NCBI GenBank assembly: GCA_963924555.1
Contig: OZ004581.1
Coordinates: 8,781,338-8,845,337 of the forward strand
DNA from: Crambe crambe
Taxonomy: Eukaryota; Porifera; Demospongiae; Poecilosclerida; Crambeidae
DNA: 64,000 bases
Direction: 5' to 3'
In this document: in pieces, positions 5,346-52,015 of the stretch
How positions within the stretch are numbered: position 1 is the first letter of the stretch
Layout: each line of letters begins with the position of its first letter
Position numbers and translations under genes: made by a program
The notes under the pieces: generated by a model
What the model was told of the DNA's origin: nothing
Databases searched by the model: none
The model's input: only the letters and a program-made list of their open reading frames with translations

Positions 5346-5928
5346 TGAAGGTATGACAGGGTAAGATAATGAGAAGTGATAAAACAATATGTTAATGAAG
5401 TATAAGTAATGACTTACCAGGAGAAGGGGTAATAAGTTCCAACATCAAATTGAGTGTGTATGGTGTGAAAGAACATGATGCCAAATATAATAATGTCAGT
5501 CTTGAATGACTCACCTCCTGAAAGAAAACATTGATACACATACTAACTAAAGGTCGTGATCATAACATAATTCAGCACTTTCTAATCAATAAATATTCCA
5601 GACACAATCTTGAAACCGCCTTCCTTTTTTGGTAAAGGGTTGACAAGTGAGAATTGGCCCCACCCGTACGTACACATGGGCCACATAGGCACACTGCAGT
5701 ACAGCACAAACTGCACTTCAGGTGAGGAAGGAATGAGCTTCCAATTCATTACCAGTGGGTTGCATTGGTACACCCTCTATAATCAATACTCCACAACTAA
5801 ATGAGCTGTCACACCCTAGTCCCTAGCTACCTTTTTCATGTGAATACACTCACAAAATATGGTTCAGCTCTGCTAGAAGTAGCCTTCTTCTCTGCTTCTT
5901 CATTCTCTTCACCTTTTTTATCACTCAT
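5321..5928 (-). CDS. Head 1: first exons of an array-containing gene (partial)
   Basis: The first exon is 5854-5928: ATG, 25 codons, beginning MSDKKGEENEEAEKK and ending AEPYF, followed by donor GTGAGT at phase 0. The next candidate exon is 5753-5776, 24 nt after acceptor TTATAG, reading RVYQCNPL before a weak GTAATG donor. Two single-codon exons follow: GAG at 5515-5517 between TTTCTTTCAG and GTGAGTC, and GAT at 5321-5323 between CCTTCAG and GTGAGTT. Then array 1 begins. All boundaries are phase 0. The 5' peptide is charged and has no signal sequence. The same head occurs at 12.8-13.2 kb and 51.6-52.0 kb. The 24-nt exon differs from those copies by exactly one CCA codon, which supports coding. 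The remainder of the gene lies left of the window, so function is not known from this copy. Confidence 0.55.
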
Positions 5929-10920: not shown

Positions 10921-12620
10921 CAGAATGAAATTAAGCATCAAAATACGACAATGAAGGTACGGCAGGGTAAGAGAATAGACAGCATGTAAGTAACAATGCA
11001 GAGAGTGAGTCAGCTCAGAGTAACATACCAACTGAAGGAATGAAATTAAGCATCAAAATACGACAGTGAAGATACGACAGGGTAAGAGATTAAACAGCAT
11101 GTAAGTAACAATGCAGATAGTGAGTATGTTCAGAATAACTTACCTCCTGAAGGAATGAAATTAAGCATCAAAATACGACGACAGGGTAAGAGAATAGACA
11201 GCATGTGAGTAACAATGCAGAGAGTGAGTCAGTTCAGAATAACTTACTATCTGAAGGAATGAAATTAAGCATCAAAATACGACAGTGAAGGTAAGATAGG
11301 GTAAGAGAATAGACAGCATGTAAGTAACAATGCAGAGAGTGAGTACGTTCAGAATAACTTACTCGCTGAAGGAATGAAATTAAGCATCAAAATACGACAA
11401 CAGGGTAAGAGAATAGACAGCATGTAAGTAACAATGCAGAGAGTGAGTACATTCAGAATAACTTACCTCCTGAAGGAATGAAATTAAGTATCAAAATACG
11501 ACGATAGGGTAAGAGAATAGACAGCATGTAAGTAACAATGCAGAGAGTGAGTCAGTTCAGAATAACTTACCTCCTGAAGGAATGAAATTAAGCATCAAAA
11601 TACAACAGTGAAAGTACGACAGGGTAAGAGAATAGACAGCATGTAAGTAACAATGCAGAGAGTGAGTCAGCTCAGAGTAACTTACCTCCTGAAGGAATGA
11701 AATTAAGCATCAAAATACGACAGTGAAGGTAAGACAGGGTAAGAGAATAGACAGCATGTAAGTAACAATGCAGAGAGTAAGTACATTCAGAATAACTTAC
11801 CAACTGAAGGAATGAAATTAAGCATCAAAATATAACAGTGAAGGTACGACAGGGTAAGAGAATAGACAGCATGTAAGTAACAATGCAGAGAGTGAGTATA
11901 ACTTACTAACTGAAGGAATGAAATTAAGCATCAAAATACGACAGTGAAGGTACGGCAGGGTAAGAGAATAGACAGCATGTAAGTAACAATGCAGAGAGTG
12001 AGTCAGCTCAGAGTAACTTACCAACTGAAGGAATGAAATTAAGCATCAAAATACGACAGTGAAGATACGACAGGGTAAGAAAATAGACAGCATGTAACAA
12101 TGCAGAGAGTGAGTCGGTTCAGAATAACTCACCTCCTGAAGAAATGAAATTAAGCATCAAAATACGACAACAGGGTAAGAGAATAGACAGCATGTAAGTA
12201 ACAATGCAGAGAGTGAGTACATTCAGAATAACTTACTCGCTGAAGGAATGAAATTAAGCATCAAAATACGACAGTGAAGTTAAGACAGGGTAAGAGAATA
12301 GACAGCATGTAAGTAACAATGCAGAGAGAGTGAGTACGTTCAGAATAACTTACTCGCTGAAGGAATGAAATTAAGCATCAAAATACGACAGTGAAGGTAA
12401 GACAGGGTAAGAGAATAGACAGCATGTAAGTAACAATGCAGAGAGAGTGAGTACGTTCAGAATAACTTACTCGCTGAAGGAATGAAATTAAGCATCAAAA
12501 TACGACAGTGAAGGTACGACAGGGTAAGAGAATAGACAGCATGTAAGTAATAGTGCTGAAAGTTGTCAAGAGTAACTCACATCCTGAAGGATCTAAATAT
12601 GTCAATGAAGGTATGACAGG
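10921..12620 (-). repeat. Array 2: short microexon-like array, truncated
   Basis: About 15 units of the same ~115-bp repeat as arrays 1 and 3. Minus-sense triplets between CAG and GTAAGT include TTG, GAG, ATA, CGA, TTA and, in the diverged final unit, GAT. The left edge breaks inside a unit and joins unrelated sequence, with no transmembrane exon beyond it, so this copy looks orphaned. Confidence 0.88.
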
Positions 12621-12774: not shown

Positions 12775-13173
12775 CTCCTGAAAGAAAACATTGATACACA
12801 TAATTATTCAGCACTTTCTAATCAATAAATATTCCAGACACAATGTTGAAACTTCCTTCCTTTTTTGGTAAAGGGTTGACAAGTGAGAATTGGCCCCACC
12901 CGTACACATGGGCCACATAGGCACACTGCAGTACAGCACAAGCTGCACTTCAGGTGAGGAAGGAATGAGCTTCCAAGTCATTACCAGTGGTGGGTTGCAT
13001 TGGTACACTCTCTATAATCAATACTCCCCAACTAAATGAGCTGGTGTCACACCCTAGCCCCTAGTCCCTAGCTACCTTTTTCATGTGAATGCACTCACAA
13101 AATATGGTTCAGCTCTGCTAGAAGTAGCCTTCTTCTCTGCTTCTTCATTCTCTTCACCTTTTTTATCACTCAT
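12775..13173 (-). CDS. Head 2: first exons upstream of array 2
   Basis: The first exon (13099-13173, 75 nt) starts MSDKKGEENEEAEKK and ends AEPYF at a GTGAGT donor. The second candidate exon (12985-13011, 27 nt) reads RVYQCNPPL. A single-codon GAG exon lies at 12775-12777 between TTTCAG and GTGAGTC. The structure is that of heads 1 and 3. A KDZ transposon begins only 36 bp upstream of the ATG, probably separating this head from its promoter, and array 2 leads nowhere. The locus is probably not functional, although its exon frames are intact. Confidence 0.5.
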
Positions 13174-31640: not shown

Positions 31641-34600
31641 TCAAAAATACCAATCACGGATAGTTTCATTTATTTCTTCTGCAAGTGTTTTCAATCCGAT
31701 ATCATTTAAGACTTTGACAAGACTCTTCCACGAAACTTCCACTCCCTTTCCTTCCAACCAGTTGTTGAGTATTCTGGTGGTGATGTCCACTGGAACCCCA
31801 CGAAGTTCTTTTTGAATGGCCTTCACATGAGCACCTGTTTCATCCTTCAGCAGTGATATTCCAAAACTGGTATAATCTGCTCCAATCTTGTTTGGAATGT
31901 TGATGTTACGCCTGAGGCCAGGGAAGTTGAGTAAACAGGGCATAGTGGGCTTCAAACCTGGAAGAGTAAGTGACAACCAAAACTTTCATTAGTAATATTG
32001 CCCCTGAAGGAACTGCAATCAAAAGGGGACATGCTTGGACAATGACTGCAAGTAACTAGCTATTCTAGTAATAGTTAAGTAACAATAATCAGAGAGCGCG
32101 GTAGCACTCTCTATGTAGGGATGACCTATGACCCTCCATAGGACTAATACAAAATGAAGTTGGATTTTCTCAGAAAACAGTAAGTTGTAGCTGCTATGAC
32201 TGCTTATCCTGTCTTTTATGCACATTCTTATCATGCAGGAGAATTTTGGAGGCTGAAAGACTCAACACGGAAGAATAGTAAAAGCGCACTTTTTTTCATG
32301 ATTTCTTATTTTCTTGTTCTTAATCATCATAATAATGGAGAAAAATTGGGCCACGCTTGAGCCATGTTCTATATATGAATCTGCTCCATTTTACTCGGAC
32401 CAGGTCCACGTCCCATCGGTTTATATAATTAGCCTCTAGTTCACTCAAAAAAAAAGCCGCCATCTTAGTACAGTAGAAGAAGCCATTAAACATAACGCGC
32501 ATACGTAAACAACGAAGTTGCCATGACTCTCGATCACTCAAAGTTCTCAAACAAAACTCAAAAGCCATTTCTTCTGAGGTCATAACAAAAAAATAATCAG
32601 TTCTAAGATAAGGCTATCTGTACTAAGGACAGCGTTTAAATTTTAAATGGTAAGTAACGCTCGAGTTCCCGTGGTGTGCATTATTTAGAAACGAAACCTG
32701 GCAGGCTGATAGAGCAGCTCAGCTGTATCTATTTAGAACTGAAGACTTTAGTCTCACTAAATTGTTTACCAGGCTTGATTGTGATCCAACATTGCAACAC
32801 AAGACTTAGTATAACTGGTATGTAATGGAAAAAAAAAAGCTATAGATGTACAGCACTGACCACCTCCTGAAAAAGAATAATGGGCCTGACATAACAAGTA
32901 GCCAGCTAGCTATAATGAGATGGATATAATGACCTGCAAAAAATAAATAAATAAATAGAAAATGAAAGAAACAAGTAAAGAAAAAACATTTATTCAAATA
33001 AATGAAGGTGATGTAGGGATGACTATAGTAACTGGTCAAAAAAGAGATGAAACAAGAACTGAATAGATGAGATTATGCAAGGATGAAGTCGAATCCGGGT
33101 GCAGTCACTAGGTGTGACGTGCCCACATTCGACTTCATCCTTGCATAATCTCATCTATTCAGTTCTTGTTTCATCTCTTTTTTGACCAGTTACTATAGTC
33201 ATCCCTACATCACCTTCATTTATTTGAATAAATGTTTTTTCTTTACTTGTATTATTATGGTGGCTAGACTTGTTCATGTTTGGATTTCTTTAATGACCAG
33301 GTCCACTGGCTATCACAGTCAATAGCTTTAGGCTTTTTTATTTTTTAGTATTCTTACATTCTGAAGTGCTCATCCCTCCCTGAGATGATGGGTAGACCTT
33401 TAAATCAGCTGTACCTAATGATTGAGTGTGCATATAAAACACTGTATGGAGAGCACATTGGCACTACATAGCTTACCAGGCATCCATTTTGGCATAACGA
33501 TAGCTAAAATGATGGCTAGGATGGCAATAACAATTGCGATGATGGTGGTAGCTGCAATGGGTCCAAATAATTATTACTAAAACATAATAATAATTATGTT
33601 GTATGTGTATACATGCAACACTGCATGTATGGAGAGTACATTGGCAATACATAGCTTACCAGGCATCCATTTTGGCATAAAGATAGCTAAAATGATGGCT
33701 AGGATGGCAATAACAATTGCGATGATGGTGGTAGCTGCAATGGGTCCAAATAATTATTACTAAAACATAATAATAATTATGTTGTATGTGTATACATACA
33801 ACACTGCATGTATGGAGAGTACATTGGCACTACGTAGCTTACCAGGCATCCACTTTGGCATAAAGATAGCTGAAATGATGGCTACTAGAAGGGCAATAAC
33901 AATTGCGATGATGGTGGTTCTGGATGCTGTTGTGGTAGCTGTAATGGGTCCAAATAACAATTTCATGGAATGAGCTAGTGCTAGTGACAAGCACTATAAC
34001 TTATGCTACTAAATCACATACTAACCACACTAATAATACTAACACCCCACTTTCAGGCACCCCACATTTGCATCCTATAAAATTTTGTGTAAATAAACAT
34101 TTTTGAACACAATGGTAGCTACCCTCAGTCATCATGTTAAAGAATTTTGCAGAATCTTTGCAACAAGAATATCGTTATGATAGAGCTATACTGCTGTGGT
34201 CCAGGCCTATTGTTCTAGCTATGAGCAAAAAATTGTGAGGATTGATGGTGTCTATTAGACTCTGTCAAAGGTTGTTCATCTAGTTTGCCTATCAGAGAAT
34301 ACCAATACAAGATTTATGTGAAAATCATAATACTCTATACTGTAGGTAAAGGAAACTGTTAAGATAAAAATTACAAGCTATATTCAAACAGAAAATAACT
34401 TTGGGATCAATAATATTGAACTAAGTAATAATTATTTGAAAGATGATTAACCAAATTCCACTTTCTGCTCCAAACAGAATTGATATACTGTCTATGCATA
34501 AATAAACATGTATCAGAAAATTTATAAAAGAGGGGAAGAATAGAATTAGTTAATGGGCATAAAATTAAATAGTTATGGAGATGCAAAAATTCATCTGCTG

Positions 34601-34975: not shown

Positions 34976-37746
34976 ATAATATTGCTGCTAAGGACGCATT
35001 AAGAAGGACTAGCTTGCAACCTCCTGAATTCTGGTTAGGAACTCACAGGAGGACTGCTTATATATCTCTTTTCAGCATGTAGTGTGGATACCCAAAGTCC
35101 CAGCTGAAGCTATAACTAGTGTTGTGTCAGATAAAATTAATAAGTTTGTTTCTGACAGAGCTAAATGAATGAAGTGCACTGCCTTTTCTTCACACTCTCT
35201 ACTTTAAATAATAAAATGGGCTGGGCTTCTGTTAGTTATCGTACCTGGATCAATGTTGATGGTAAAAAAATTATTATTCAAAGTGCCACTTATATCCACA
35301 ATGTATTCAAGTGGCTGTACTTTCTGTCCCTCCTTTATCCACTTTGCCACTAATTCACAATGCGGTATTACTTGACTTTCTGGTTTATGACGATCCACTT
35401 GTTTCTTATCAATCTATAAGATAGTCAGTGCAATACTATAGCTAATATGTGCACACACATTTATTACCTCTGGTGATACTGAGGGGAAAATATTCCATTT
35501 TTCTTGTAGAGTAACACCTTCTTTCTCAATGCTTAAGTTGATTTTATTGTCTCTGAAGTAAAATGATTGTTCTGGACCAGTTGCAGCTTTTTTAGATGAA
35601 TAGTGTTTCCGGACAGTCTATAATAATAACAAAGTGGACTGGTCATGATATTATGATATAAAAGCTAAACATAGACATTCCTAGAAGTAGCCGAGTCAGC
35701 AAAAAGTGACAAGCCATGTCAATATTAGCACCTATGAACTTCAATTTTACACACCTTGAATATGATTCTATGATTAACTCACATTTACGTGTGCATCATC
35801 ACTCCATGTAACAGCAAAGTGTATATCTTTGTTGGTAGGCTTTCCCATATAAAACACACCAAACCAATATTCACGTTCATCAGATCCATTTTGTACTACT
35901 GCTATTCTACAAAATCGGTTTAAAGTTATCATTCCATAGGTGCTGTGTTCATTAAAGGTCCCTCCATGGATGATATTGAAGGAAACTGGACGATCCTCTT
36001 TGGTTTTTGAAGATGATGGTTGTAGGTATGTGGTATGTGAAGCCCTAGCAAAGGAGAGGCGGAAGCTGTTCTTACGTGGAGCACAGTGCTGAATTTCTAG
36101 ACTCAATTGAACTTGAAATTTACACTTTGGGTTAGATCGAAACCAAAAAACAGGACTGACCAGTTCAGTATTTACTGGGAATACATAGTGGCCAGAAAGT
36201 GAAGCAATGATAGTAATAGTGCAGCTGCTCAAGTTGCTAGGTAGGGATCCTGATGAAATATTTAGTCTCAATCCATATCCTTTCCAATCAAAGGATTGAG
36301 AAGAATTAGTCACCTGGATTTCTGTAACTTGTATTCCTGTACCAAATGAATCAGATATGCATGATACTGTGTTCACTTGCATATGGAATAGAGCATTATG
36401 TTATGATGTGGTTTTATAGAGCCACATAAAAGATAGGTTGGTATAATGCTCGACATTTAATTATGATATTAATAACTATACCTTTATAAACAGTAAGGAC
36501 AGCAACAGTGCTATTTACAGAATGTCCACCACCAGAGATAGTACAAGAATACTTTCCACTTGATTCCACAGATACGTTGTAAATTCTCAAAGTAGCAAGA
36601 TTGGAACCTTCAATATTGATCTTGTTTGATAGTGATGTGCCATTCTTATACCACTTGTAGACCAAGTCCATTCCATCTGCTCTCACTTTAAAACTCACAT
36701 CACTTCTTTCGGCAATACTTATGTTTGATGGTTGCTTCTTAATTAGTGGTTGCTTCTTATTTAGAGGAATGACTACAATGAATGTTGTTACAAAAGTCAG
36801 TGAATGCATGCACACAAGAATATAATAAATTATTCTGGTGTATGAATGTATAGCCAGATATAAATCCTATACTAAAGGACTGCATTCAGTGCTTCAAAGG
36901 ACATAATATTATGTTCCAACCAATCTTCTTATTTTTGTTTAACTATAGTAGGCACTGCAGGGGTGGGTGGCTGTGGGGGAAGGGCTCTCCACTGTTAGAA
37001 GCCTGATATCTTGAATGTGTAGTAATGAGTCACATCCTTATGTGTAGACAGCTTTGTAGCATGCTGTGCTGAAGGAACACTGCCAGCTTTCTGTAGCAAC
37101 CTGCTTTCCCTTCCTTAAGCAGGCAGGATCTACTATATATAAGCACTATAGAGAGGCGATGTTAGGGCCAGTCCATCATCTCGAGGAGGAATGAGCACAT
37201 TTCAAGAATGCTAAAAAAGCCTAAAGCCATACACTATAAAAACGAAATGGTGAACATCACTACATTGTAGTGATGTTCACCATTTCGCTTTTACAGCGTA
37301 GCAGTAGGACTGCTCTATGGTGTCTGTTAAATGCCTGCTCTATAGTAACTGCTCTATAGTCTATAGTGCCTTCTATTGCTTGCTCTAATGGTAGCATACT
37401 CTGTGCCTCCTCTATAGTGGTAGCATACTCTGTGCCTCCTCTATAGTGGTAGCATACTCTGTGCCTCCTCTATAGTGGTAGCATACTCTGTGCCTCCTCT
37501 ATAGTGGTAGCATACTCTGTGCCTCCTCTATAGTGGTAGCATACTCTGTGCCTCCTCTATAGTGGTAGCATACTCTGTGCCTCCTCTATAGTGGTAGCAT
37601 ACTCTATAGTGCCTTAATGATTGAGTGTGTACAATACATGCATCACTGCATGGAAAACATGCACACATGATCATATATATTATCTTACCAAACATCAATA
37701 TAATAACAACGATGGCTAGGAGGGCAATAACTGTTGCAGTACAATA
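31641..37746 (-). CDS. Ig - ZU5 - linker - TM - Death-domain receptor-like gene (body)
   Basis: Phase-consistent exons, in coding order. A TM exon is 37689-37746 (VIALLAIVVIILMF, phase 0 to 1). An Ig exon is 36482-36772 (phase 1-1; YKWYKNGTSL and SSGKYSC present, first core Cys replaced in DVSFKV). A ZU5-like exon is 35783-36366 (GTGIQVTEIQVTNSS, VFPVNTELVSPVFWF, LEIQHCAPRKN). Linker exons are 35468-35617 and 35245-35413. Three tandem TM exons lie at 33477-33938. The Death exon is 31641-31957 (ISLLKDETGAHVKAIQKELR, NNWLEGKGVEVSWKSLVKVL, LAEEINETIRDW). ZU5 with Death occurs in UNC5-like and related receptors, where Death domains recruit signalling adaptors. Here ZU5 precedes the TM, so topology differs from UNC5. 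The first TM exon could act as a signal anchor. The first exon is probably at 52 kb, beyond array 3. Confidence 0.78.
32068..33288. other. 1.2-kb segment absent from the paralogous locus at 62.8 kb
   Basis: The Death-gene introns here and at 62.6-62.96 kb align on both sides (CTAACTAGCTATTCTAG-like and ATGACCAGGTCCACTGGC), but this stretch is missing from the other copy. It holds the giant hairpin at 32971-33250. No gene is seen. Confidence 0.6.
32971..33250. repeat. Perfect 124-bp inverted repeat with 32-nt loop
   Basis: The left arm 32971-33094 and right arm 33127-33250 are exact reverse complements (ACAAGTAAAG...GAAGTCGAAT / ATTCGACTTC...CTTTACTTGT). The 32-nt centre contains a smaller inversion, GTCAC...GTGAC. 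No flanking target duplication is evident. A transcript would fold into a long dsRNA hairpin. Confidence 0.95.
33477..33938 (-). CDS. Three tandem, mutually similar transmembrane exons
   Basis: Exons 33843-33938 (96 nt), 33660-33734 (75 nt) and 33477-33551 (75 nt) each begin after a CCCATT(A/G)CAG acceptor and end in MPKWMPG at GTAAGC. All are phase 1-1. They encode near-identical helices, for example TIIAIVIAILAIILAIFM. The first carries seven extra codons (TTASRT). Duplicated intron flanks (~110 bp) show recent tandem duplication. Because all are symmetric, any one, or more than one, can be spliced in frame between the linker and Death exons. They are sub-parts of the gene body above. Confidence 0.8.
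33939..35244 (-). other. Intron between linker and TM exons
   Basis: No exon is supported. It contains a (GA)n microsatellite at about 34942-34972. Confidence 0.5.
37243..37287. repeat. Near-perfect palindrome, 22-bp arms, 1-nt centre
   Basis: CGAAATGGTGAACATCACTA-CA, one T, then its exact reverse complement. Flanking A/T runs extend the pairing imperfectly. Confidence 0.92.
37392..37605. repeat. 29-bp minisatellite
   Basis: About seven near-identical tandem copies of GTAGCATACTCTGTGCCTCC plus TCTATAGTG, preceded by degenerate CTCTATAGT words from 37315. Confidence 0.92.
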
Positions 37747-40700
37747 CTGGCAAGGAGAAGGTACGGCAGGGTAAGAAAATAGCAAGTAAGTAACAATGCA
37801 GAGAGTGAGTCAGTTCAGAATAACTTACTAGCTGAAGGAATGAAATTAAAGCATCGAATACGACAGTGAAGGTATAATAGGGTAAGAGAATAGACAGCAT
37901 GTAAGTAACAATGCAGAGAGTGTGTTCAGAATAACTTACCGACTGAAGAAATCATCAAAATACGTCAGTGAAGGTATGACAGAGTAAGAGAATAGAAAGC
38001 ATGTAAGTAACCATGCAGAGAGTGAGTACGTTCAGAATAACTTACCGACTGAAGGAATGAAATTAAAGCATCGAATACGACAGTGAAGGTACAATAGGGT
38101 AAGAGAATAGACAGCATGTAAGTAACAATGCAGAGAGAGTATTTTCAGAATAACTTACCCGCTGAAGGAATGAAATTAAGCATCAAAATATGACAGTGAA
38201 GGTACAACAGGGTAAGAGAATAGACAGCATGTAAGTAACCATGCAGAAAGTGAGTACGCTCAGAATAACTTACCGACTGAAGAAAATACGTCAGTGAAGG
38301 TACGACAGAGTAAGAGAATAGACAGCATGTAAGTAACAATGTCAGTTCAGAATAACTTACTGGCTAAAGGAATGAAATTAAGCATCAAAATAGGACAGTG
38401 AAGGTACAACAGGGTAAGAGAATAGACAGCATGTAAGTAACCATGCAGAGAGTGAGTACGTTCAGAATAACTTACCCTCTGAAGGAATGAAATTAAGCAT
38501 CAAAATATGACAGTGAAGGTACAACAGGGTAAGAGAATAGACAGCATGTAAGTAACCATGCAGAGAGTGAGTACGTAAAGGATAACTTACCGACTGAAGG
38601 AATGAAATTAAGCATCAAAATACGACAGTGAAGGTACAACAGGGTAAGAGAATAGACAGCATGTAAGTAACAATGCAGAGAGTGAGTACGTTCAGAATAA
38701 CTTACCGACTGAAGAAAATACGTCAGTGAAGGTACGACAGAGTAAGAGAATAGACAGCATGTAAGTAACAATGCAGAGTTCAGAGTAACTTACCACTTGA
38801 AGGAATGAAATTAAGCATCAAAATACGACAGTTAAGGTACAACAGGGTAAGAGAATAGACAGCATGTAAGTAACCATGCAGAGAGTGAGTCTGTTCAGAA
38901 TAACTTACCGACTGAAGGAATGAAATTAAAGCATCGAATACGACAGTGAAGGTACAACAGGGTAAGAAAATAGACAGCATGTAAGTAACCATGCAGAGAG
39001 TGAGTACGTTCAGAATAACTTACTGACTGAAGGAATGAAATTAAAGCATCGAATACGACAGTGAAGGTACAATAGGGTAAGAGAATAGACAGCATGTAAG
39101 TAACAATGCAGAGAGTGAGTCAGTTCAGGATAACATACCAGCTAAAGGAATGAAATTAAGCATCAAAATATAACAGTGAAGATACAACAGGATAAGAGAA
39201 TAGACAGCATGTAAGTAACAATGCAGAGAGTGAGTCAGTTCAGAATAACTTACATACTGAAGGAATGAAATTAAGCATCAAATACGACAGTGAAGGTACG
39301 ACAGGGTAAGAGTATAGACAGCATGTAAGTAACAATGCAGAGAGTGAGTATTTTCAGAATAACTTACCCGCTGAAGGAATGAAATTAAGCATCAAAATAT
39401 GACAGTGAAGGTACAACAGGGTAAGAGAATAGACAGCATGTAAGTAACAATGCAGAGAGTGAGTACGTACAGAATAACTTACAGACTGAAGGAATGACAT
39501 TAAAGCATCGAATACGACAGTGAAGGTACAACAGGGTAAGAGAATAGACAGCATGTAAGTAACCATGCAGAGAGTGAGTCAGTTCAGAATAACTTACATA
39601 CTGAAGGAATGAAATTAAGCATCAAATATGACAGTGAAGGTACGACAGGGTAAGAGTATAGACAGCATGTAAGTAAAAATGCAGAGAGTGAGTATTTTCA
39701 GAATAACTTACCAGCTGAAGGAATGAATTAAGCATCAAAATATGACAGTGAAGGTACAACAGGGTAAGAGAATAGACAGCATGTAAGTAACCATGCAGAG
39801 AGTGAGTACGTACAGAATAACTTACCGACTGAAGGAATGACATTAAAGCATCAAATACGACAGTGAAGGTACAACAGGGTAAGAAAATAGACAGCATGTA
39901 AGTAACAATGCGGAGAGTGAGTACGTTCAGAATAACTTACCGACTGAAGGAATGAAATTAAAGCATCGAATACGACAGTGAAGGTACAACAGGGTAAGAA
40001 AATAGACAGCATGTAAGTAACAATGCGGAGAGTGAGTACGTTCAGAATAACTTACCGACTGAAGGAATGAAATTAAAGCATCGAATACGACAGTGAAGGT
40101 ACGATAGGGTAAGAGAATAGACAGCATGTAAGTAACCATGCAGAGAGTGAGTCAGTTCAGAATAACTTACATACTGAAGGAATGAAATTAAGCATCAAAT
40201 ACGACAGTGAAGGTACAATAGTGTAAGAGAATAGACAGCATGTAAGTAACAATGCAGAGAGTGAGTCAGTTCAGAATAACTTACATACTGAAGGAATGAA
40301 ATTAAGCATCAAAATATGACAGTGAAGGTACAACAGGGTAAGAGAATAGACAGCATGTAAGTAACCATGCAGAGAGTGAGTACGCTCAGAATAACTTACC
40401 GACTGAAGAAAATACGTCAGTGAAGGTACGACAGAGTAAGAGAATAGACAGCATGTAAGTAACAATGTAAAGAGTGAGTCAGTTCAGAATAACTTACTGG
40501 CTAAAGGAATGAAATTAAGCATCAAAATACGACAGTGAAGGTACAACAGGGTAAGAGAATAGACAGCATGTAAGTAACCATGCAGAGAGTGAGTACGTTC
40601 AGAATAACTTACCCTCTGATGGAATGAAATTAAGCATCAAAATATGACAGTGAAGGTACAACAGGGTAAGAGAATAGACAGCATGTAAGTAACCATGCAG

Positions 40701-43700
40701 AGAGTGAGTACGTACAGGATAACTTACCGACTGAAGGAATGAAATTAAGCATCAAAATACGACAGTGAAGGTACAACAGGGTAAGAGAATAGACAGCATG
40801 TAAGTAACCATGCAGAGAGTGAGTACGTACAGAATAACTTACCGACTGAAGGAATGACATTAAAGCATCAAATACGACAGTGAAGGTACAACAGGGTAAG
40901 AAAATAGACAGCATGTAAGTAACAATGCGGAGAGTGAGTACGTTCAGAATAACTTACCGACTGAAGGAATGAAATTAAAGCATCGAATACGACAGTGAAG
41001 GTACAACAGGGTAAGAAAATAGACAGCATGTAAGTAACAATGCGGAGAGTGAGTACGTTCAGAATAACTTACCGACTGAAGGAATGAAATTAAAGCATCG
41101 AATACGACAGTGAAGGTACGATAGGGTAAGAGAATAGACAGCATGTAAGTAACCATGCAGAGAGTGAGTCAGTTCAGAATAACTTACATACTGAAGGAAT
41201 GAAATTAAGCATCAAATACGACAGTGAAGGTACAATAGTGTAAGAGAATAGACAGCATGTAAGTAACAATGCAGAGAGTGAGTCAGTTCAGAATAACTTA
41301 CATACTGAAGGAATGAAATTAAGCATCAAAATATGACAGTGAAGGTACAACAGGGTAAGAGAATAGACAGCATGTAAGTAACCATGCAGAGAGTGAGTAC
41401 GCTCAGAATAACTTACCGACTGAAGAAATACGTCAGTGAAGGTACGACAGAGTAAGAGAATAGACAGCATGTAAGTAACAATGTAAAGAGTGAGTCAGTT
41501 CAGAATAACTTACTGGCTAAAGGAATGAAATTAAGCATCAAAATACGACAGTGAAGGTACAACAGGGTAAGAGAATAGACAGCATGTAAGTAACCATGCA
41601 GAGAGTGAGTACGTTCAGAATAACTTACCCTCTGATGGAATGAAATTAAGCATCAAAATATGACAGTGAAGGTACAACAGGGTAAGAGAATAGACAGCAT
41701 GTAAGTAACAATGCAGAGAGTGAGTCAGTTCAGAATAACTTACCTGCTGAAGGAATGAAATTAAGCATCAAAATACAACAGTGAAGGTACAATAGGGTAA
41801 GAGAATAGACAGCATGTAAGTAACAATGCAGAGAGTGAGTCAGTTCAGAATAACTTACCAGCTAAAGGAATGAAATTAAGCATCAAAATATAACAGTGAA
41901 GATACGACAGGATAAGAGAATAGACAGTATGTAAGTAACAATGCACAGAGTGAGTCAGTTCAGGATAACTTACCGGCTAAAGGAATGAAATTAAGCATCA
42001 AAATATAACAGTGAAGATACAACAGGATAAGAGAATAGACAGCATGTAAGTAACAATGCAGAGAGTGAGTCAGTTCAGAATAACTTACTTGCTGAAGGAA
42101 TGAAATTAAGCATCAAAATACAACAGTGAAGGTAAAATAGGGTAAGAAAATAGACAGCATGTAAGTAACAATGCAGAGAGTGAGTCAGTTCAGAATAACT
42201 TACGGGCTGAAGGAATGAAATTAAGCATCAAAATACAACAGTGAAGGTAAGAGAAATAGACAGCATGTAAGTAACAATACAGAGAGTAAGTCAATTCAGA
42301 ATAACTTACCCACTGAAGGAATGAAATTAAGCATCAAAATACAGCAGTGAAGGTACGTTAGGGTAAGAGAATAGACAGCATGTAAGTAACAATGCAGAGA
42401 GTGAGTCAGTTCAGAATAACTTACTTGCTGAAGTAATGAAATTAAGCATCAAAATATAACAGTGAAGGTAAAAAAGGGTAAGAAAATAGACAGCATGTAA
42501 GTAACAATGCAGAGAGTGAGTCAGTTCAGAATAACTTACAGGCTGAAGGAATGAAATTAAGCATCAAAATACAACAGTGAAGGTACGATAGGGTAAGAGA
42601 AATAGACAGCATGTAAGTAACAATACAGAGAGTAAGTCAATTCAGATTAACTTACCCACTGAAGGAATGAAATTAAGCATCAAAATACAGCAGTGAAGGT
42701 ACGTTAGGGTAAGAGAATAGACAGCATGTAAGTAACAATGCAGAGAGTGAGTCAATTCAAGATAACTTACACACTGAAGGAATAAATTTAAGCATCAAAA
42801 TACGACAGTGAAGGTACGACAGAGTAAGTAAATAGACAGCATGTAAGTAACAATGCAGAGTGTGAGTTAATTAAAGACAACTTACACACTGAAGGAATGA
42901 ATCAAAATACGACAGTGAAGGTATGACAGGGTAAGAGAATAGACAGCATGTAAGTAATAATGCAGAGAGTGAGTCAGTTCAGAATAACTTACTTGCTGAA
43001 GGAATGAAATTAAGCATCAAAATACAACAGTGAAGGTACGATAGGGTAAGAGAAATAGACAGCATGTAAGTACCAATACAGAGAGTGAGTCAATTCAGAA
43101 TAACTTACCCACTGAAGGAATGAAATTAAGCATCAAAATACAGCAGTGAAGGTACGTTAGGGTAAGAGAATAGACAGCATGTAAGTAACAATGCAGAGAG
43201 TGAGTCAATTCAAATTAACTTACACACTGAAGGAATAAATTTAAGCATCAAAATACGACAGTGAAGGTACGACAGAGTAAGAGAATAAACAGCATGTAAG
43301 TAACAATGCAGAGTGTGAGTTAATTAAAGACAACTTACACACTGAAGGAATGAATCAAAATACAACAGTGAAGGTATGACAGGGTAAGAGAATAGACAGC
43401 ATGTAAGTAATAATGCAGAGAGTGAGTCAGTTCAGAATTACTTACTTGCTGAAGGAATGAAATTAAGCATCAAAATACAACAGTGAAGGTACGATAGGGT
43501 AAGAGAAATTGACAGCATATAAGTAACAATACAGAGAGTGAGTCAATTCAGAATAACTTACCCACTGAAGGAATGAAATTAAGCATCAAAATACAGCAGT
43601 GAAGGTACGTTAGGGTAAGAGAATAGACAGCATGTAAGTAACAATGCAGAGAGTGAGTCAATTCAAGATAACTTACACACTGAAGGAATAAATTTAAGCA

Positions 43701-44013
43701 TCAAAATACGACAGTGAAGGTACGACAGAGTAAGAGAATAGACAGCATGTAAGTAACAATGCAGAGTGTGAGTTAATTAAAGACAACTTACACACTGAAG
43801 GAATGAATCAAAATACGACAGTGAAGGTATGACAGGGTAAGAGAATAGACAGCATGTAAGTAATAATGCAGAGAGTGAGTCAGTTCAGAATAACTTACTT
43901 GCTGAAGGAATGAAATTAAACATCAAAATATAACAGTGAAGGTACGATAGGGTAAGGGAATAGACAGCATGTAAGCAACAATGCAGAGATTGAGTCAATT
44001 CAAGATAACTTAC

Positions 44014-44044
44014 ACGCTAACACAATAACTATTGCAGTGTAATA
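44014..44044 (-). pseudogene. Truncated transmembrane exon fused to an array unit (copy 1)
   Basis: After acceptor CATGCCAG the 31-nt exon reads YYTAIVIVLA and runs directly into an array-type CGT/GTAAGTTATC donor. It matches the first half of the 37.7-kb TM exon (YCTATVIALLA) and ends at the same phase 1, but is far too short to span a membrane. Confidence 0.65.
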
Positions 44045-47000
44045 CTGGCATGGATAAGGTACGGCAGGGTAAGAAAATAGCATGTAAGTAATGATGCAGA
44101 GAGGTAGTCAGTTCAGAATAACTTACCAGCTGAAGGAATTAAATTAAGCATAAAAAGACGACAGTGAAGGTATGGCAGGGTAAGAGAATAGACAGCATGT
44201 AAGTAACAATGCAGAGAGTGAGTATGTTCAAAATAACTTACCTTCTGAAGGAATGAAATTAAGCATCAAAATACGACTGTGAAGGTAAGACAGGGTAAGA
44301 GAATAGATAGCATGTAAGTAACAATGCAGAGAGTGAATCAGTTCTGAATAACTTACTTGCTGTAGGAATGAAATTAAGCATTGAAATACGACAGTGAAGG
44401 TACGACAGGATAAGAGAATAGACAGCATGTAAGTAACAATGCAGAGAGTGAGTATGTTCAGAATAACATACCAATTGAAGGAATGAAATTAAGCATCAAA
44501 GTAAAAGTACGGCAGGGTAAGAGAACAGACAGCATGTAAGTAACAATGCAGAGAGTGAGTCAGTTCAGGATAACTTACCGGCTAAAGGAATGAAATTAAG
44601 CATCAAAATAATAACAGTGAAGATACGACAGGGTAAGAAAATAGACAGCATGTAAGTAACAATGCAGAGAGTGAGTCAGTTCAGAATAACTTACCGACTG
44701 AAGAAATCATCAAAATACGACAGTGAAGGTACGACAGAGTAAGAGAATAGACAGCATGTAAGTAACAATGCAGAGTGTGAGTTAATTAAAGACAACTTAC
44801 ACACTGAAGGAATGAATCAAAATACGACAGTGAAGGTATGACAGGGTAAGAGAATAGACAGCATGTAAGTAACAATGCAGAGAGTGAGTTTATTCAGAAT
44901 GACTTACCAGCTGAAGGAATGAAATTAGGCATCCAAATACGATAGTGAAATACAACAGGGTAAGAAAATAGACAGAATGTAAGTAACAATGCAGAGAGTG
45001 AGTCAGTTCAGGATAACTTACCGGCTAAAGGAATGAAATTAATCATCAAAATATAACAGTAAAGATATGACAACAGACAGCATGTAAGTAACAAAATGCA
45101 GAGTGTGAGTTTATTCAGAATAACTTACCAGCTGAAGGAATGTAATTAGGCATCCAAATACGATAGTGAAAATACAACAGGGTAAGAAAATAGACAGAAT
45201 GTAAGTAACAATACAGACAGTGAGTATGTTCAGAATAACTCACCAGCTAAAAGAATGAAATAAGGCATCGAAATACAACAGTGAAGGTAAGAGAATAGAC
45301 AGCAAGTTATTAATGCAAAGAGTGAGTCAGTTCGGAATAACTTACCAACAGAAGGAATAGAGTACATACTACGGTGAACAGGACAATGTAAGATAATATA
45401 CAGCATGAAAGTAACAATGCAGAGAGTGAGTCAGTTCAGAATAACTTACTTGCTGAAGGAATGAAATTAAGCATCAAAATACAACAGTGAATTAAGGTAC
45501 AATAGGGTAAGAGAATAGACAGCATGTAAGTAACGATGCAGAGAGTGAGTCAATTCAAGATAACTTACAAACTGAAGGAATAAATTTAAACATCAAAATA
45601 CGACAGTGAAGGTACGACAGAGTAAGAGAATAGACAGCATGTAAGTAACAATACAGAGAGTGAGTTAATTAAAAATAACTTACACACTGAAGGAATGAAT
45701 TTAAGCATCAAGATACGACAGTGAAGGTATGACAGGGTAAGAGAATAGACAACATGTAAGTAATAATGCAGAGTGTGAGTTAATTAAAGATAACTTACAC
45801 ACTGAAGGAATGAATTTAAGCATCAAAATACAACAATGAAGGTATGACAGGGTAAGAGAATAGCATGTAAGTAACAATGCAGAGAGTGAGTTAATTAAAG
45901 ATAACTTACACACTGAAGGAATGACACGACAGTGAAGGTATGACAGGGTAAGAAAATAGACAGCATGTAAGTAACAATGCAGAGAGTGAGTCAGTTCAGA
46001 ATAACTTACTTTCTAAAGGAATGAAATTAAGCATCAAAATACAATAGTGAAGGTACAATAGGGTAAGAAAATAGACAGCATGTAAGTAACAATGAAGAGA
46101 GTGAGTCAATTGAGAATAACTTACCAACTGAAGGAATGAAATTAAGCATCAAAAATACAACAGTGAAGGTACGACAGAGTAAGAGAATAGACAGCATGTA
46201 AGTAACAATGCAGAGTGTGAGTTAATTAAAGACAACTTACACACTGAAGGAATGAATCAAAATACGACAGTGAAGGTACGACAGAGTAAGAGAATAAACA
46301 GCATGTAAGTAACAATGCAGAGTGTGAGTTAATTAAAGACAACTTACACACTGAAGGAATGAATCAAAATACAACAGTGAAGGTATGACAGGGTAAGAGA
46401 ATAGACAGCATGTAAGTAATAATGCAGAGAGTGAGTCAGTTCAGAATTACTTACTTGCTGAAGGAATGAAATTAAGCATCAAAATACAACAGTGAAGGTA
46501 CGATAGGGTAAGAGAAATAGACAGCATGTAAGTAACAATACAGAGAGTGAGTCAATTCAGAATAACTTACCCACTGAAGGAATGAAATTAAGCATCAAAA
46601 TACAGCAGTGAAGGTACGTTAGGGTAAGAGAATAGACAGCATGTAAGTAACAATGCAGAGAGTGAGTCAGTTCAGAATAACTTACCTGCTGAAGGAATGA
46701 AATTAAGCATCAAAATACAACAGTGAAGGTACAATAGGGTAAGAGAATAGACAGCATGTAAGTAACAATGCAGAGAGTGAGTCAGTTCAGAATAACTTAC
46801 CAGCTAAAGGAATGAAATTAAGCATCAAAATATAACAGTGAAGATATGACAGGGTAAGAGAATAGACAGCATGTAAGTAACAATGCAAAGAGTGAGTCAG
46901 TTCAGGATAACTTACCGGCTAAAGGAATGAAATTAAGCATCAAAATACAACAGTGAAGGTACAATAGGGTAAGAGAATAGACAGCATGTAAGTAACAATG

Positions 47001-50000
47001 CAGAGAGTGAGTCAGTTCAGAATAACTTACCAGCTAAAGGAATGAAATTAAGCATCAAAATATAACAGTGAAGATATGACAGGGTAAGGGAATAGACAGC
47101 ATATAAGTAACAATGCAGAGAGTGAGTCAATTCAAGATAACTTACACGCTGAAGGAATAAATTTAAGCATCAAAATACGACAGTGAAGGTACGACAGAGT
47201 AAGAGAATAGACAGCATGTAAGTAACAATGCAGAGTGTGAGTTAATTAAAGATAACTTACACACTGAAGGAATGAATTTAAGCATCAAGATATGACAGTG
47301 AAGGTATGACAGGGTAAGAAAATAGACAGCATGTAAGTAACAATGCAGAGAGTGAGTCAGTTCAGAATAACTTACTTGCTAAAGGAATGAAATTAAGCAT
47401 CAAAATACAATAGTGAAGGTACAATAGGGTAAAAAAATAGACAGCATGTAAGAAACAATGAAGAGAGTGAGTCAATTGAGAATAACTTACTCACTGAAGG
47501 AATGAAATTAAGCATCAAAAATACAACAGTGAAGGTACGACAGAGTAAGAGAATAGACAGCATGTAAGTAACAATGCAGAGTGTGAGTTAATTAAAGACA
47601 ACTTACACACTGAAGGAATGAATCAAAATACAACAGTGAAGGTATGACAGGGTAAGAGAATAGACAGCATGTAAGTAACAATGCAGAGAGTGAGTCAGTT
47701 CAGAATAACTTACTTGCTGAAGGAATGAAATTAAGCATCAAAATACAACAGTGAAGGTACAATATAGTAAGAGAGTAGACAGCATGTAAGTAATGTGAGT
47801 CAGTTCAGAATAACTTACGGGCTGAAGAAATGAAATTAAGCATCAAAATACAACAGTGAAGGTACGATAGGGTAAGAGAAATAGACAGCATGTAAGTAAC
47901 AATACAGAGAGTGAGTCAATTCAGAATAACTTACCCACTGAAGGAATGAAATTAAGCATCAAAATACAGCAGTGAAGGTACGTTAGGGTAAGAGAATAGA
48001 CAGCATGTAAGTAACAATGCAGAGAGTGAGTCAGTTCAGAATAACTTACCTGCTGAAGGAATGAAATTAAGCATCAAAATACAACAGTGAAGGTACGTTA
48101 GGGTAAGAGAATAGACAGCATGTAAGTAACAATGCAGAGAGTGAGTCAGTTCAGAATAACTTACCTGCTGAAGGAATGAAATTAAGCATCAAAATACAAC
48201 AGTGAAGGTACAATAGGGTAAGAGAATAGACAGCATGTAAGTAACAATGCAGAGAGTGAGTCAGTTCAGAATAACTTACCAGCTAAAGGAATGAAATTAA
48301 GCATCAAAATATAACAGTGAAGATATGACAGGGTAAGAGAATAGACAGCATGTAAGTAACAATGCAAAGAGTGAGTCAGTTCAGGATAACTTACCGGCTA
48401 AAGGAATGAAATTAAGCATCAAAATACAATAGTGAAGGTACAATAGGGTAAGAAAATAGACAGCATGTAAGTAACAATGAAGAGAGTGAGTCAATTGAGA
48501 ATAACTTACCAACTGAAGGAATGAAATTAAGCATCAAATATACAACAGTGAAGGTACGACAGAGTAAGAGAATAGACAGCATGTAAGTAACAATGCAGAG
48601 TGTGAGTTAATTAAAGACAACTTACACACTGAAGGAATGAATCAAAATACGACAGTGAAGGTATGACAGGGTAAGAGAATAGACAGCATGTAAGTAACAA
48701 TGCAGAGAGTGAGTCAGTTCAGAATAACTTACTTGCTGAAGGAATGAAATTAAGCATCAAAATACAACAGTGAAGGTACAATAGAGTAAGAGAATAGACA
48801 GCATGTAAGTAACGTGAGTCAGTTCAGAATAACTTACAGGCTGAAGAAATGAAATTAAGCATCAAAATACAACAGTGAAGGTACGATAGGGTAAGAAAAA
48901 TAGACAGCATGTAAGTAACAATACAGAGAGTGAGTCAATTCAGAATAACTTACCCACTGAAGGAATGAAATTAAGCATCCAAATACAGCAGTGAAGGTAC
49001 GTTAGGGTAAGAGAATAGACAGCATGTAAGTAACAATGCAGAGAGTTAGTCAATTCAAGATAACTTACAAACTGAAGGAATAAATTTAAGCATCAAAATA
49101 CGACAGTGAAGGTACGACAGAGTAAGAGAATAGACAGCATGTAAGTAACAATGCAGAGAATGAGTATGGTCAAAATAACTTACTAACTGAAGGAGTGAAA
49201 TTAAGCATCAAGATACGACAGTGAAGGTATGACAGGGTAAGAAAATAGACAGCATGTAAGTAACAATGAAGAGAGTGAGTCAGTTCAGAATAACTTACTT
49301 GCTAAAAGAATGAAATTAAGCATCAAAATACAATAGTGAAGGTACAATAGGGTAAGAGAATAGACAGCATGTAAGAAACAATGAAGAGAGTGAGTCAATT
49401 GAGAATAACTTACCCACTGAAGGAATGAAATTAAGCATCAAAAATACAACAGTGAAGGTACGACAGAGTAAGAAAATAGACAGCATGTAAGTAACAATGC
49501 AGAGTGTGAGTTAATTAAAGACAACTTACACACTGAAGGAATGAATCAAGATACGACAGTGAAGGTATGACAGGGTAAGAGAATAGACAGCATGTAAGTA
49601 ACAATGCAGAGAGTGAGTCAGTTCAGAATAACTTACTTGCTAAAAGAATGAAATTAAGCATCAAAATACAATAGTGAAGGTACAATAGGGTAAGAAAATA
49701 GACAGCATGTAAGAAACAATGAAGAGAGTGAGTCAATTGAGAATAACTTACCCACTGAAGGAATGAAATTAAGCATCAAAAATACAACAGTGAAGGTACG
49801 ACAGAGTAAGAGAATAGACAGCATGTAAGTAACAATGCAGAGTGTGAGTTAATTAAAGACAACTTACACACTGAAGGAATGAATCAAAATACGACAGTGA
49901 AGGTACAATAGAGTAAGAGAATAGACAGCATGAAAGTAACGTGAGTCAGTTCAGAATAACTTACAGGCTGAAGAAATGAAATTAAGCATCAAAATACAAC

Positions 50001-50195
50001 AGTGAAGGTACGATAGGGTAAGAGAAATAGACAGCATGTAAGTAACAATACAGAGAGTGAGTCAATTCAGAATAACTTACCCACTGAAGGAATGAAATTA
50101 AGCATCAAAATACAGCAGTGAAGGTACGTTAGGGTAAGAGAATAGACAGCATGTAAGTAACAATGCAGAGAGTGAGTCAATTCAAGATAACTTAC

Positions 50196-50226
50196 ACGCT
50201 AACACAATAACTATTGCAGTGTAATA
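50196..50226 (-). pseudogene. Truncated transmembrane exon fused to an array unit (copy 2)
   Basis: Same 31-nt structure as at 44014-44044, with the same flanking ~250 bp. The two are copies produced by block amplification of the array. They mark where an ancestral TM-exon unit recombined with a microexon unit. Confidence 0.65.
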
Positions 50227-51613
50227 CTGGCATGGAGAAGGTACAGCAGGGTAAGAAAATAGCATGTAAGTAATGATGCAGAGAGGTAGTCAGTTCAGAA
50301 TAACTTACCAGCTGAAGGAATTAAATTAAGCATCAAAAGACGACAGTGAAGGTATGGCAGGGTAAGAGAATAGACAGCATGTAAGTAACAATGCAGAGAG
50401 TGAGTCAGTTCAGGATAACTTACCGGCTAAAGGAATGAAATTAAGCATCAAAATATAACAGTGAAGGTAAGACAGGGTAAGAGAATAGACAGCATGTAAG
50501 TAACAATGCAGAGAGTGAGTCAGTTCAGAATAACTTACCGACTGAAGAAATCATCAAAATACGTCAGTGAAGGTACGACAGAGTAAGAGAATAGACAGCA
50601 TGTAAGTAACAATGCAGAGAGTGAGTACGTTCAGAATAACTTACCTCCTGAAGGAATGAAATTGAGCATCAAAATACGACAGTGAAGGTACAGCAGGGTA
50701 AGAGAATAGACAGCATGTAAGTAACAATGCAGAGAGTGAGTCAGTTCAGAATAACTTACTCGCTGAAGGAATGAAATTAAGCATCAAAATACGACAGTGA
50801 AGGTAAGACAGGGTAAGAGAATAGACAGCATGTAAGTAACAATGCAGAGAGTGAGTCAGTTCAGAATAACTTACTTGCTGAAGGAATGAAATTAAGCATC
50901 AAAATACGACGACAGGGTAAGAGAATAGACAGCTTGTAAATAACAATGCAGAGAGTGAGTATGCTCAGAATAACTTACATCCTGAAGGAATGAAATTAAG
51001 CATCAAAATACGACAGTGAAGGTAAGACAGGGTAAGAGAATAGACAGCATGTAAGTAACAATGCAGAGAGTGAGTACGTTCAGAATAATTTACCTCCTGA
51101 AGGAATGAAATTAAGCATCAAAATACGACAGTGAAGGTAAGTCAGGGTAAGAGAATAGACAGCATGTAAGTAACAATGCAGAGAGTGAGTTTATTCAGAA
51201 TAACTTACCCGCTGAAGGAATGAAATTAAGCATCAATGAGGTATGACAGGGTAAGAGAATAGACAGCATGTGAGTAACAATGTAGAGAGCGAGTTTATTC
51301 AGAATAACTTACCTGCTGAAGGAATGAAAATAAGCATCAAGATACAACAATGAAGGTACGACAGGGTAAGAGAATAGACAGCATGTAAGTAATAGTGCTG
51401 AAAGTTGTCAAGAATAACTCACATCCTGAAGGATCTAAATATGTCAATGAAGGTATGACAGGGTAAGATAATGAGAAGTGATAAAACGATATGCTAATAA
51501 AGTATGAGTAATGACTTACCAGGAGAAGGGGTAATAAGTTCCAACGTCAAATTGAGTGTGTATGGTGTGAAAGAACATGATGCCAAATATAATGTCAGTC
51601 TTGAATGACTCAC

Positions 51614-52015
51614 CTCCTGAAAGAAAACATTGATACACATACTAACTAAAGGTCGTGATCATAACACGATTCAGTACTTTCTAATCAATAGACATTATAG
51701 AGATACCTCCTTCCTTTATTTGGTAAAAGGTTGACAAGTGAGATCTCGAGAATTGGCCCCACCCGTACGTACCCATGGGCCACATAGGCACATTGCAGTA
51801 CAGCACAAGCTGCACTTCAGGTGAGGAAGGAATGAGTTTCCAAGTCATTACCAGTGGTGGGTTGCATTGGTAAACCCTCTATAATCAACTAAATGAGCTG
51901 GTGTCACACCCTAGTCCCTAGTCCCTAGCTACTTTTTTCATGTGAATGCACTCACAAAATATGGTTCAGCTCTGCTAGAAGTAGCCTTCTTCTCTTCATC
52001 TTTTTTATCACTCAT
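51614..52015 (-). CDS. Head 3: first exons of the Ig-ZU5-Death gene
   Basis: The first exon (51956-52015, 20 codons) begins MSDKKDEEKKATSS and ends AEPYF at GTGAGT. The second candidate exon (51852-51878, 27 nt) reads RVYQCNPPL. A GAG single-codon exon lies at 51614-51616 and a GAT unit near 51421-51423 opens the array. All boundaries are phase 0, as is the acceptor side of the TM exon at 37746, so splicing from here through or over the array into the TM-Ig-ZU5-Death body stays in frame. The encoded N-terminus is short and charged, consistent with a cytosolic tail before a signal anchor. The link across 14 kb is inference. Confidence 0.5.

Follow-up and report, generated by a model that had tools for sequence, protein, structure and literature searches.

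At recursive splice sites an acceptor and a donor are directly juxtaposed and no sequence is retained. Introners are near-identical introns present in many copies per genome, as insertions scattered over many unrelated genes, and Dscam-type exon clusters and MHC genes hold diverse exons between homogenised introns. The present analysis concerns a tandem array on the minus strand of a 64,000-nucleotide stretch of the sponge Crambe crambe (GCA_963924555.1, contig OZ004581.1, positions 8,781,338 to 8,845,337; hereafter the window, C1:8781338-8845337 of a 143-Mb assembly), together with its sister arrays elsewhere in this genome, in which each unit of about 115 bp joins an intron-like sequence to three bases flanked by splice sites. 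These arrays very probably code for protein as long series of single-codon exons, which would give each Roc-COR-Death protein of the family its own N-terminal segment of 20-129 residues. As at recursive sites, a donor follows at once upon an acceptor and stepwise removal would be expected; unlike them, three bases stand between the two, stop codons are avoided among these, and a codon under coding constraint would be retained. With introners the arrays before Roc genes share near-identical introns (mean per-site diversity 0.079), whereas here the copies lie in tandem within one gene family and each brings exactly one codon. The likeness to Dscam-type clusters and MHC genes is that diversity resides in exons between homogenised non-coding sequence; here, however, the exon would be a single residue, used serially and not mutually exclusively.

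Other described systems contain exons of comparable size. According to the accessible text of the reports, the exons of schistosome micro-exon genes (MEGs) measure 6-36 bp and make up about 80% of the coding region, and the proteins are nearly always secreted or exposed (PMC5825161); symmetric exons of the same 6-36 bp are also given in PMC4350168. Like MEGs, the sponge arrays are series of very small symmetric exons within genes that evolve fast, where in-frame variation by exon skipping would be possible, and 1064 of 1068 spacings measured here equal 3 nt, a multiple of three. They differ in that the exons are of 3 nt rather than 6-36 bp, are confined to the N-terminal segment instead of covering most of the coding region, form arrays of up to 129, and alternate with introns that are similar tandem copies, most of the host genes encoding Roc-COR GTPases. 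The available sections of PMC7392893 and PMC4674806 document lone 3-nt micro-exons, in Drosophila homothorax among others, and a 1-nt exon in Arabidopsis APC11; the internal homothorax exons are described there in CAG-exon-GTAAGT/GTGAGT contexts; intron definition with stepwise removal is favoured in what is accessible of PMC4674806. Such cases show that an exon of 1-3 nt can be spliced, but they are single exons in ordinary genes, not dozens in an array. No single-codon exon array was found in the literature on tiny exons, as covered by listings and the openings of abstracts, which is weak evidence of absence given the thin coverage of subscription papers and preprints; papers matching single-codon exon phrases each mention a '3-nt microexon' once. 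Arrays with one codon per exon would seem to be a new architecture.

The window gene comprises the following parts, the array being the third of three in the window (array 3):

51956..52015, minus strand: exon 1, reading MSDKKDEEKKATSSRAEPYF, with a phase-0 donor GTGAGT from 51955
51614..51616, minus strand: 3-nt exon GAG (E), the first single-codon exon, conserved across the three copies in the window
51423..51425, minus strand: 3-nt exon GAT (D), the second single-codon exon, whose exact flank occurs at 36 places on contig C1 (8.208 to 9.368 Mb)
37829..51315, minus strand: array 3, 119 units of one intron and one single codon each
37689..37746, minus strand: transmembrane (TM) exon with a phase-0 acceptor, preceded by CCAG and reading YCTATVIALLAIVVIILMF
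36482..36772, minus strand: Ig (I-set) exon (PF07679, E 5e-11)
35783..36336, minus strand: ZU5 exon, weak by itself (E 0.16), with PF00791 in homologues
31641..31985, minus strand: open frame with a Death-like domain, the probable 3' exon (PF00531, E 0.0014, below cut-off)

From exon 1 to the TM exon the minus strand thus holds 121 units in all (GAG, GAT and 119 others). Each consists of an intron, mostly of 112 nt, with a branch-point-like CTTAAT/TTGAT sequence, a pyrimidine tract and CAG or a variant of it, then three bases and GTAAGT. An earlier note on this DNA, made from the letters alone, had placed the array exactly between the phase-0 donor of exon 1 and the phase-0 acceptor of the TM exon (37746) and had described the unit in these terms; the placement is correct to the base, and the unit is borne out genome-wide by the exact matches reported below. 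The TM, Ig and ZU5 exons that follow are open in frame. The TM segment was assigned by reading alone, ZU5 is precomputed (PF00791) in 7 of 12 homologues, and the Death domain reaches 19.1 bits against a Pfam cut-off of 22.6.

The exact unit pattern CTTCAGNNNGTAAGTTATTCTGA was searched for throughout the 143 Mb, with the reversed pattern as control. It matched 2505 times (181 forward, 2324 reverse) and the control not once, so the pattern is not a product of chance; outside this genome, three single matches occurred in prokaryote contigs and one in viral contigs. The 145 exact-flank units with TAY or CAR triplets, which were the ones placed among the 2505, all lie on C1 and C11. A consensus scan yielded 18 arrays with 1115 units for analysis: 12 arrays before Roc-COR exons (706 units, hereafter Roc arrays), three that precede TM-Ig-ZU5-Death genes, that of the window included (218 units, TM-type), and three others (191 units). 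A further 31 units were read from a cluster at C1:6.6 Mb and 15 from an array on C11. Beyond the window, about 274 kb of sequence were read, the cluster spans at least 1.2 Mb, and all of it comes from one individual. When the distance between the consensus half-sites was left open in the 18 arrays, the spacing was exactly 3 nt in 1064 of 1068 matches, and this length holds while that of the introns varies widely around its commonest value (112 nt, 613 cases). The four off-length matches (two of 7, one of 4 and one of -1) were rejected as real length variants: inspection shows that the flank contains a small insertion, or a deletion, and that the triplet is still 3 nt long. Although some of the 18 arrays are recognisable duplicates, no two encode the same peptide.

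Stop codons are avoided among the triplets. The 2505 exact-flank units include no TAA/TAG and no TGA, against 91 TAT and 54 CAA/CAG; stops number 0 of 706 in the Roc arrays, where three simple expectations are about 16, 80 and 85, and the 191 triplets of the three remaining arrays contain none either. Counted once per array, they number 0 of 189, whereas 10,000 shuffles average 14.9 and never fall below 3, and TAG alone is absent where 7.1 are expected. Composition differs between array types, cysteine being encoded by none of the 706 Roc and none of the 191 other triplets, as against 19 of the 218 TM-type ones. Damage to splice sites and stops occur together: broken AG/GT sites and stops number 3 and 0 in the 706 Roc units, of which 703 have both dinucleotides intact, 2 and 0 in the 191 other units, and 11 and 3 in the 218 TM-type units. 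Exact length, stop avoidance, composition and this co-occurrence together argue that the triplets are read as codons.

The triplet is also the most variable part of the unit. Per-site diversity in the Roc arrays is 0.72, 0.73 and 0.58 at its three positions, with a median of 0.041 in the introns; as three-base words, the triplet takes 38 forms with a diversity of 0.924, while the most diverse intron word takes 13 forms (0.81) and the median word has 0.156. Between exactly identical introns, both flanking triplets differ in 312 of 893 pairs, a count in which pairs are not independent and a few common introns supply many, and the differing triplets lie at about the distance of random ones. That the codon variety arose by single-step mutation is disfavoured by these pairs and by the near-random differences, which favour reshuffling or conversion of introns. 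Recent array duplicates have gained and lost single and multiple units, and in strict ungapped runs most of their codons are unchanged. The triplets that did change in the Roc and 'other' comparisons comprise 13 nonsynonymous and 0 synonymous changes; in the Roc-Roc comparison, two short runs account for 9 of the 13 changed bases. The possibility that recent duplicates are under strong positive selection at their codons was considered and set aside: excesses over the intron rate of roughly 20-, 17- and 9-fold under a loose unit alignment became, in strict runs with few events, about 8- and 5-fold for the comparisons with Roc arrays and 14-fold for the third grouping. The TM-type arrays show 3.3 times the intron rate in strict runs (P 0.07). 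As few events remain and the TM-type arrays are raised as well, the case for coding is not rested on positive selection. Frequent unequal exchange and conversion within introns, with selection acting on the codons, would be the simplest reading of these patterns.

The host genes place the arrays in front of open coding sequence. For 12 of the 18 arrays, a Roc-COR exon of about 2 kb, in each case with an open frame, lies less than 1.5 kb beyond the array end; these 12 arrays have 51, 129, 87, 84, 45, 53, 64, 42, 20, 35, 67 and 29 units. A thirteenth array, of which 114 units were read, has a Roc match about 2.5 kb downstream of it and was tallied under 'other'. Between C1:8.14 and 9.36 Mb there are at least 23 Roc places, and in all of them the matched stretch lacks an internal stop. 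In three of four genes laid out exon by exon, the last 3-nt exon before Roc is GTG or ATG, the fourth ending on an array unit GTG, and an exon ATTCGAGCCTCAAGGACTGAAG (IRASRTE; IRAPRTE in one gene) lies in frame between the last 3-nt exon and the Roc exon. Roc and COR were both recognised above cut-off in the one gene tested (PF08477, E 3.7e-9; PF16095, COR-A, E 2.9e-15), with Death-like open frames further downstream, one of them above the Pfam cut-off.

Paralogues on two other contigs bear on the history of the arrays. On C20, a gene whose Roc domain is 44% identical (L042) shows just a pair of 3-nt exons (CCT, TGG) ahead of the Roc exon, with non-repeated introns, as read by eye from splice consensus. 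On C11, several Roc genes have TAT and CAA units upstream. In the array of one C11 paralogue (L044, C11:7149750-7151950), 15 of 15 units read are 3 nt long, and its intron consensus shares 74% identity with that of C1; no array was seen by eye in the 4.2 kb upstream of a further C11 Roc gene (L043). Because of the two-exon gene on C20 and the array with diverged introns on C11, 3-nt exons probably predate the arrays, and the arrays appear to be present in two diverged subfamilies. The part of the L044 array that was read encodes a hydrophobic Gly/Tyr/Ala-rich peptide, GYAAGYAVGYFGLFF, in which 15 of 15 codons end in T; the C1 arrays are charged instead.

Under the coding reading, each unit of about 115 bp would combine one codon, flanked by phase-0 introns, with an entire short U2-type intron, and a peptide would be built one residue per exon, preceded by a brief conserved N-terminus (…AEPYF-E-D) and followed by a Roc-COR GTPase that carries Death-like domains, a protein of immune-signalling type. 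Since an acceptor and the next donor, 3 nt apart, are hardly usable at once, removal would proceed stepwise by intron definition, every joined intron exposing the next GTAAGT. Near-identical introns may recombine unequally and convert one another, so that whole codons would be added, deleted and reordered without frameshift, and selection on the peptide would keep them diverse and free of stops. The window gene, with its TM-Ig-ZU5-Death exons, would carry a homologous array that is probably decaying. Several observations count against the coding reading. Array 3 itself contains one TGA, and three of its acceptors are damaged. No depletion is seen for TGA alone when the TM-type arrays are included (3 against 5.1 expected, P 0.22), and TAA and TGA would create a donor-like GTAAGT/GTGAGT overlapping the acceptor, which offers a possible splicing reason for their absence. 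A few intron columns are strongly variable as well (0.64, 0.55 and 0.54), and the acceleration of codon change is weaker in strict runs than in the loose alignment and reaches 3.3-fold even in TM-type arrays. The consensus scan misses degenerate units, some of which may be concealed in 23 introns longer than 135 nt. With a Roc gene spliced in silico as protein query, none of the 120 homologues listed of 321 aligned over more than 86% of the query, and in none of these 120 did an N-terminus of array type run on into the Roc exon, as would be expected of a spliced transcript. Finally, we know of no demonstration of accurate splicing of up to 129 near-identical serial introns. The depletion of TAG carries weight here because TAG, unlike TAA and TGA, makes no overlapping donor as far as seen, and because the arrays do accept GAG and AAG, as well as CAG in those of TM type.

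Two rival explanations deny the triplets any coding role. In one, which we consider very unlikely, AG-NNN-GTAAGT would be a ratchet point in the recursive removal of a long intron and the triplets would be absent from the messenger RNA; the acceptor directly before a strong donor fits this, but such triplets would lack coding constraint, yet stops number 0 of 2505 and the triplet is the most variable place of the unit. A ladder moreover has no evident need, as the long intron exists only through the array. The earlier note had held such a ladder in reserve should the exons not be included; taken alone, it leaves stop avoidance and hypervariable triplets unexplained. It is scarcely credible that the arrays are an ordinary intronic minisatellite whose splice-like look was inherited from one founder copy. 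They are tandem repeats with higher-order periods of 230 and 345 bp, and the few variable intron columns would suit a satellite too; a non-coding repeat, however, should homogenise all positions alike in the absence of coding constraint, and here the triplet stands at 0.58-0.73 against a mean of 0.079 elsewhere, its exact length and the avoidance of stops being left without explanation.

A third alternative, raised in the earlier note as a combinatorial peptide generator, retains the codons and changes their use. Units would be included stochastically, so that the in-frame set of codons would differ from one messenger RNA to the next and a large peptide repertoire would come from a single gene. 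As the exons read are 3 nt long and in phase 0 and the introns near-identical, any donor could pair with any downstream acceptor in frame; the Roc arrays tolerate the loss of an acceptor in 3 of their 706 units, and the window gene, if used through exon 1, would need its TGA unit to be skipped. Gene-specific stop-free peptides, on the other hand, suggest that most codons are read in order, and we regard such stochastic inclusion as doubtful. Equally tentative is the wider proposal that single-residue combinatorial diversity in immune-type Roc-COR-Death proteins arises jointly from germ-line unequal exchange between near-identical introns and from stochastic inclusion of exons within the cell.

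The window gene is a weak example of the architecture. The damage in array 3 is as follows:

47491..47493, minus strand: in-frame TGA triplet
45346..45348, minus strand: unit with its acceptor lost (CTG for CAG)
44472..44474, minus strand: unit with its acceptor lost (CAA for CAG)
38794..38796, minus strand: unit with its acceptor shifted by one base, giving a 2-nt exon if used

Each lost acceptor is expected to drop one codon, the TGA to stop translation unless skipped, and the shifted acceptor to give a 2-nt exon; with the array fully included, the TGA would be reached after about 35 array residues. On account of the TGA and the three damaged acceptors, this TM-Ig-ZU5-Death copy is probably decaying. 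The proposal of the earlier note that the gene may contain more than 100 single-codon exons is partly supported: the anatomy, with 121 units, and mainly the sister Roc arrays speak for it, the window gene itself less so. Two of the TM-type arrays, C1:8229178-8234226 and C1:8376969-8382779, lie about 148 kb apart and are recent duplicates (10 intron differences in 4909) that share one TGA and broken acceptors, so the damage recorded in this class stems from fewer independent events. For the window gene only, array 3 is rather probably a relic, not expressed through exon 1, in a TM-Ig-ZU5-Death copy that is pseudogene-like or has been refitted. The damage in array 3, the similar damage in the two duplicates and a TM-type composition unlike that of the Roc arrays (W 49 and C 19 of 218) point that way; the open frame of the downstream TM, Ig and ZU5 exons points the other way, as does the low number of stops (3 of 218), and a Cys- and Trp-rich composition could also fit an extracellular segment.

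Further features of this gene were observed. Two units of array 3 (44060-44023 and 50242-50205) are chimeric: in place of their pyrimidine tract and acceptor stands sequence similar to the beginning of the TM exon, which looks like the product of conversion from that exon. A perfect 29-bp tandem repeat (7.5 copies, 37389-37605) lies inside the intron 3' of the TM exon, and at 33443-33918 a 183-bp repeat (2.6 copies) consists of tandem-duplicated TM exons, its unit being a TM-type exon with acceptor and donor. The open frame at 31641-31985 is near-identical to one at 62264-62629, which suggests a second copy of the 3' exon near the window end.

If the coding reading is right, the arrays would take gene architecture to its limit, with one exon per amino acid over as many as 129 residues, and would be a natural test of the spliceosome on serial 3-nt exons with near-identical introns. 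Protein segments could evolve residue by residue, gaining, losing and swapping residues at no risk of frameshift. The domains of the gene family suggest a role in innate immunity or self-recognition. Related cases may be hidden in other genomes, because ordinary RNA-seq aligners map such small exons poorly.

The window holds two further copies of the array with its exon 1:

13099..13173, minus strand: exon 1 of the array-2 copy
11029..12473, minus strand: array 2, 14 single-codon units; the repeat stops at about 10923, with no exon recognised after it
5854..5928, minus strand: exon 1 of the array-1 copy
1..5214, minus strand: array 1, 47 of its 63 units within the window, continuing for about 1.7 kb beyond the window start as far as an exon of Death type

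The exon into which array 1 leads, IAASELEVISIENLKQ, is by reading similar to the first Death-region exon of a Roc gene. Two parts of the window, about 6.4-10.2 kb and 53.4-56.9 kb, form a segmental duplication with near-identical open frames, one of which is split in the second copy, and a common 32-bp minisatellite (8893-9406 and 55801-56154). Unrelated genes are interspersed within the cluster, namely a Ulp1-protease/PHD-finger frame (17441-19219) and a frame of 1347 residues with weak FYVE similarity (22734-26777).

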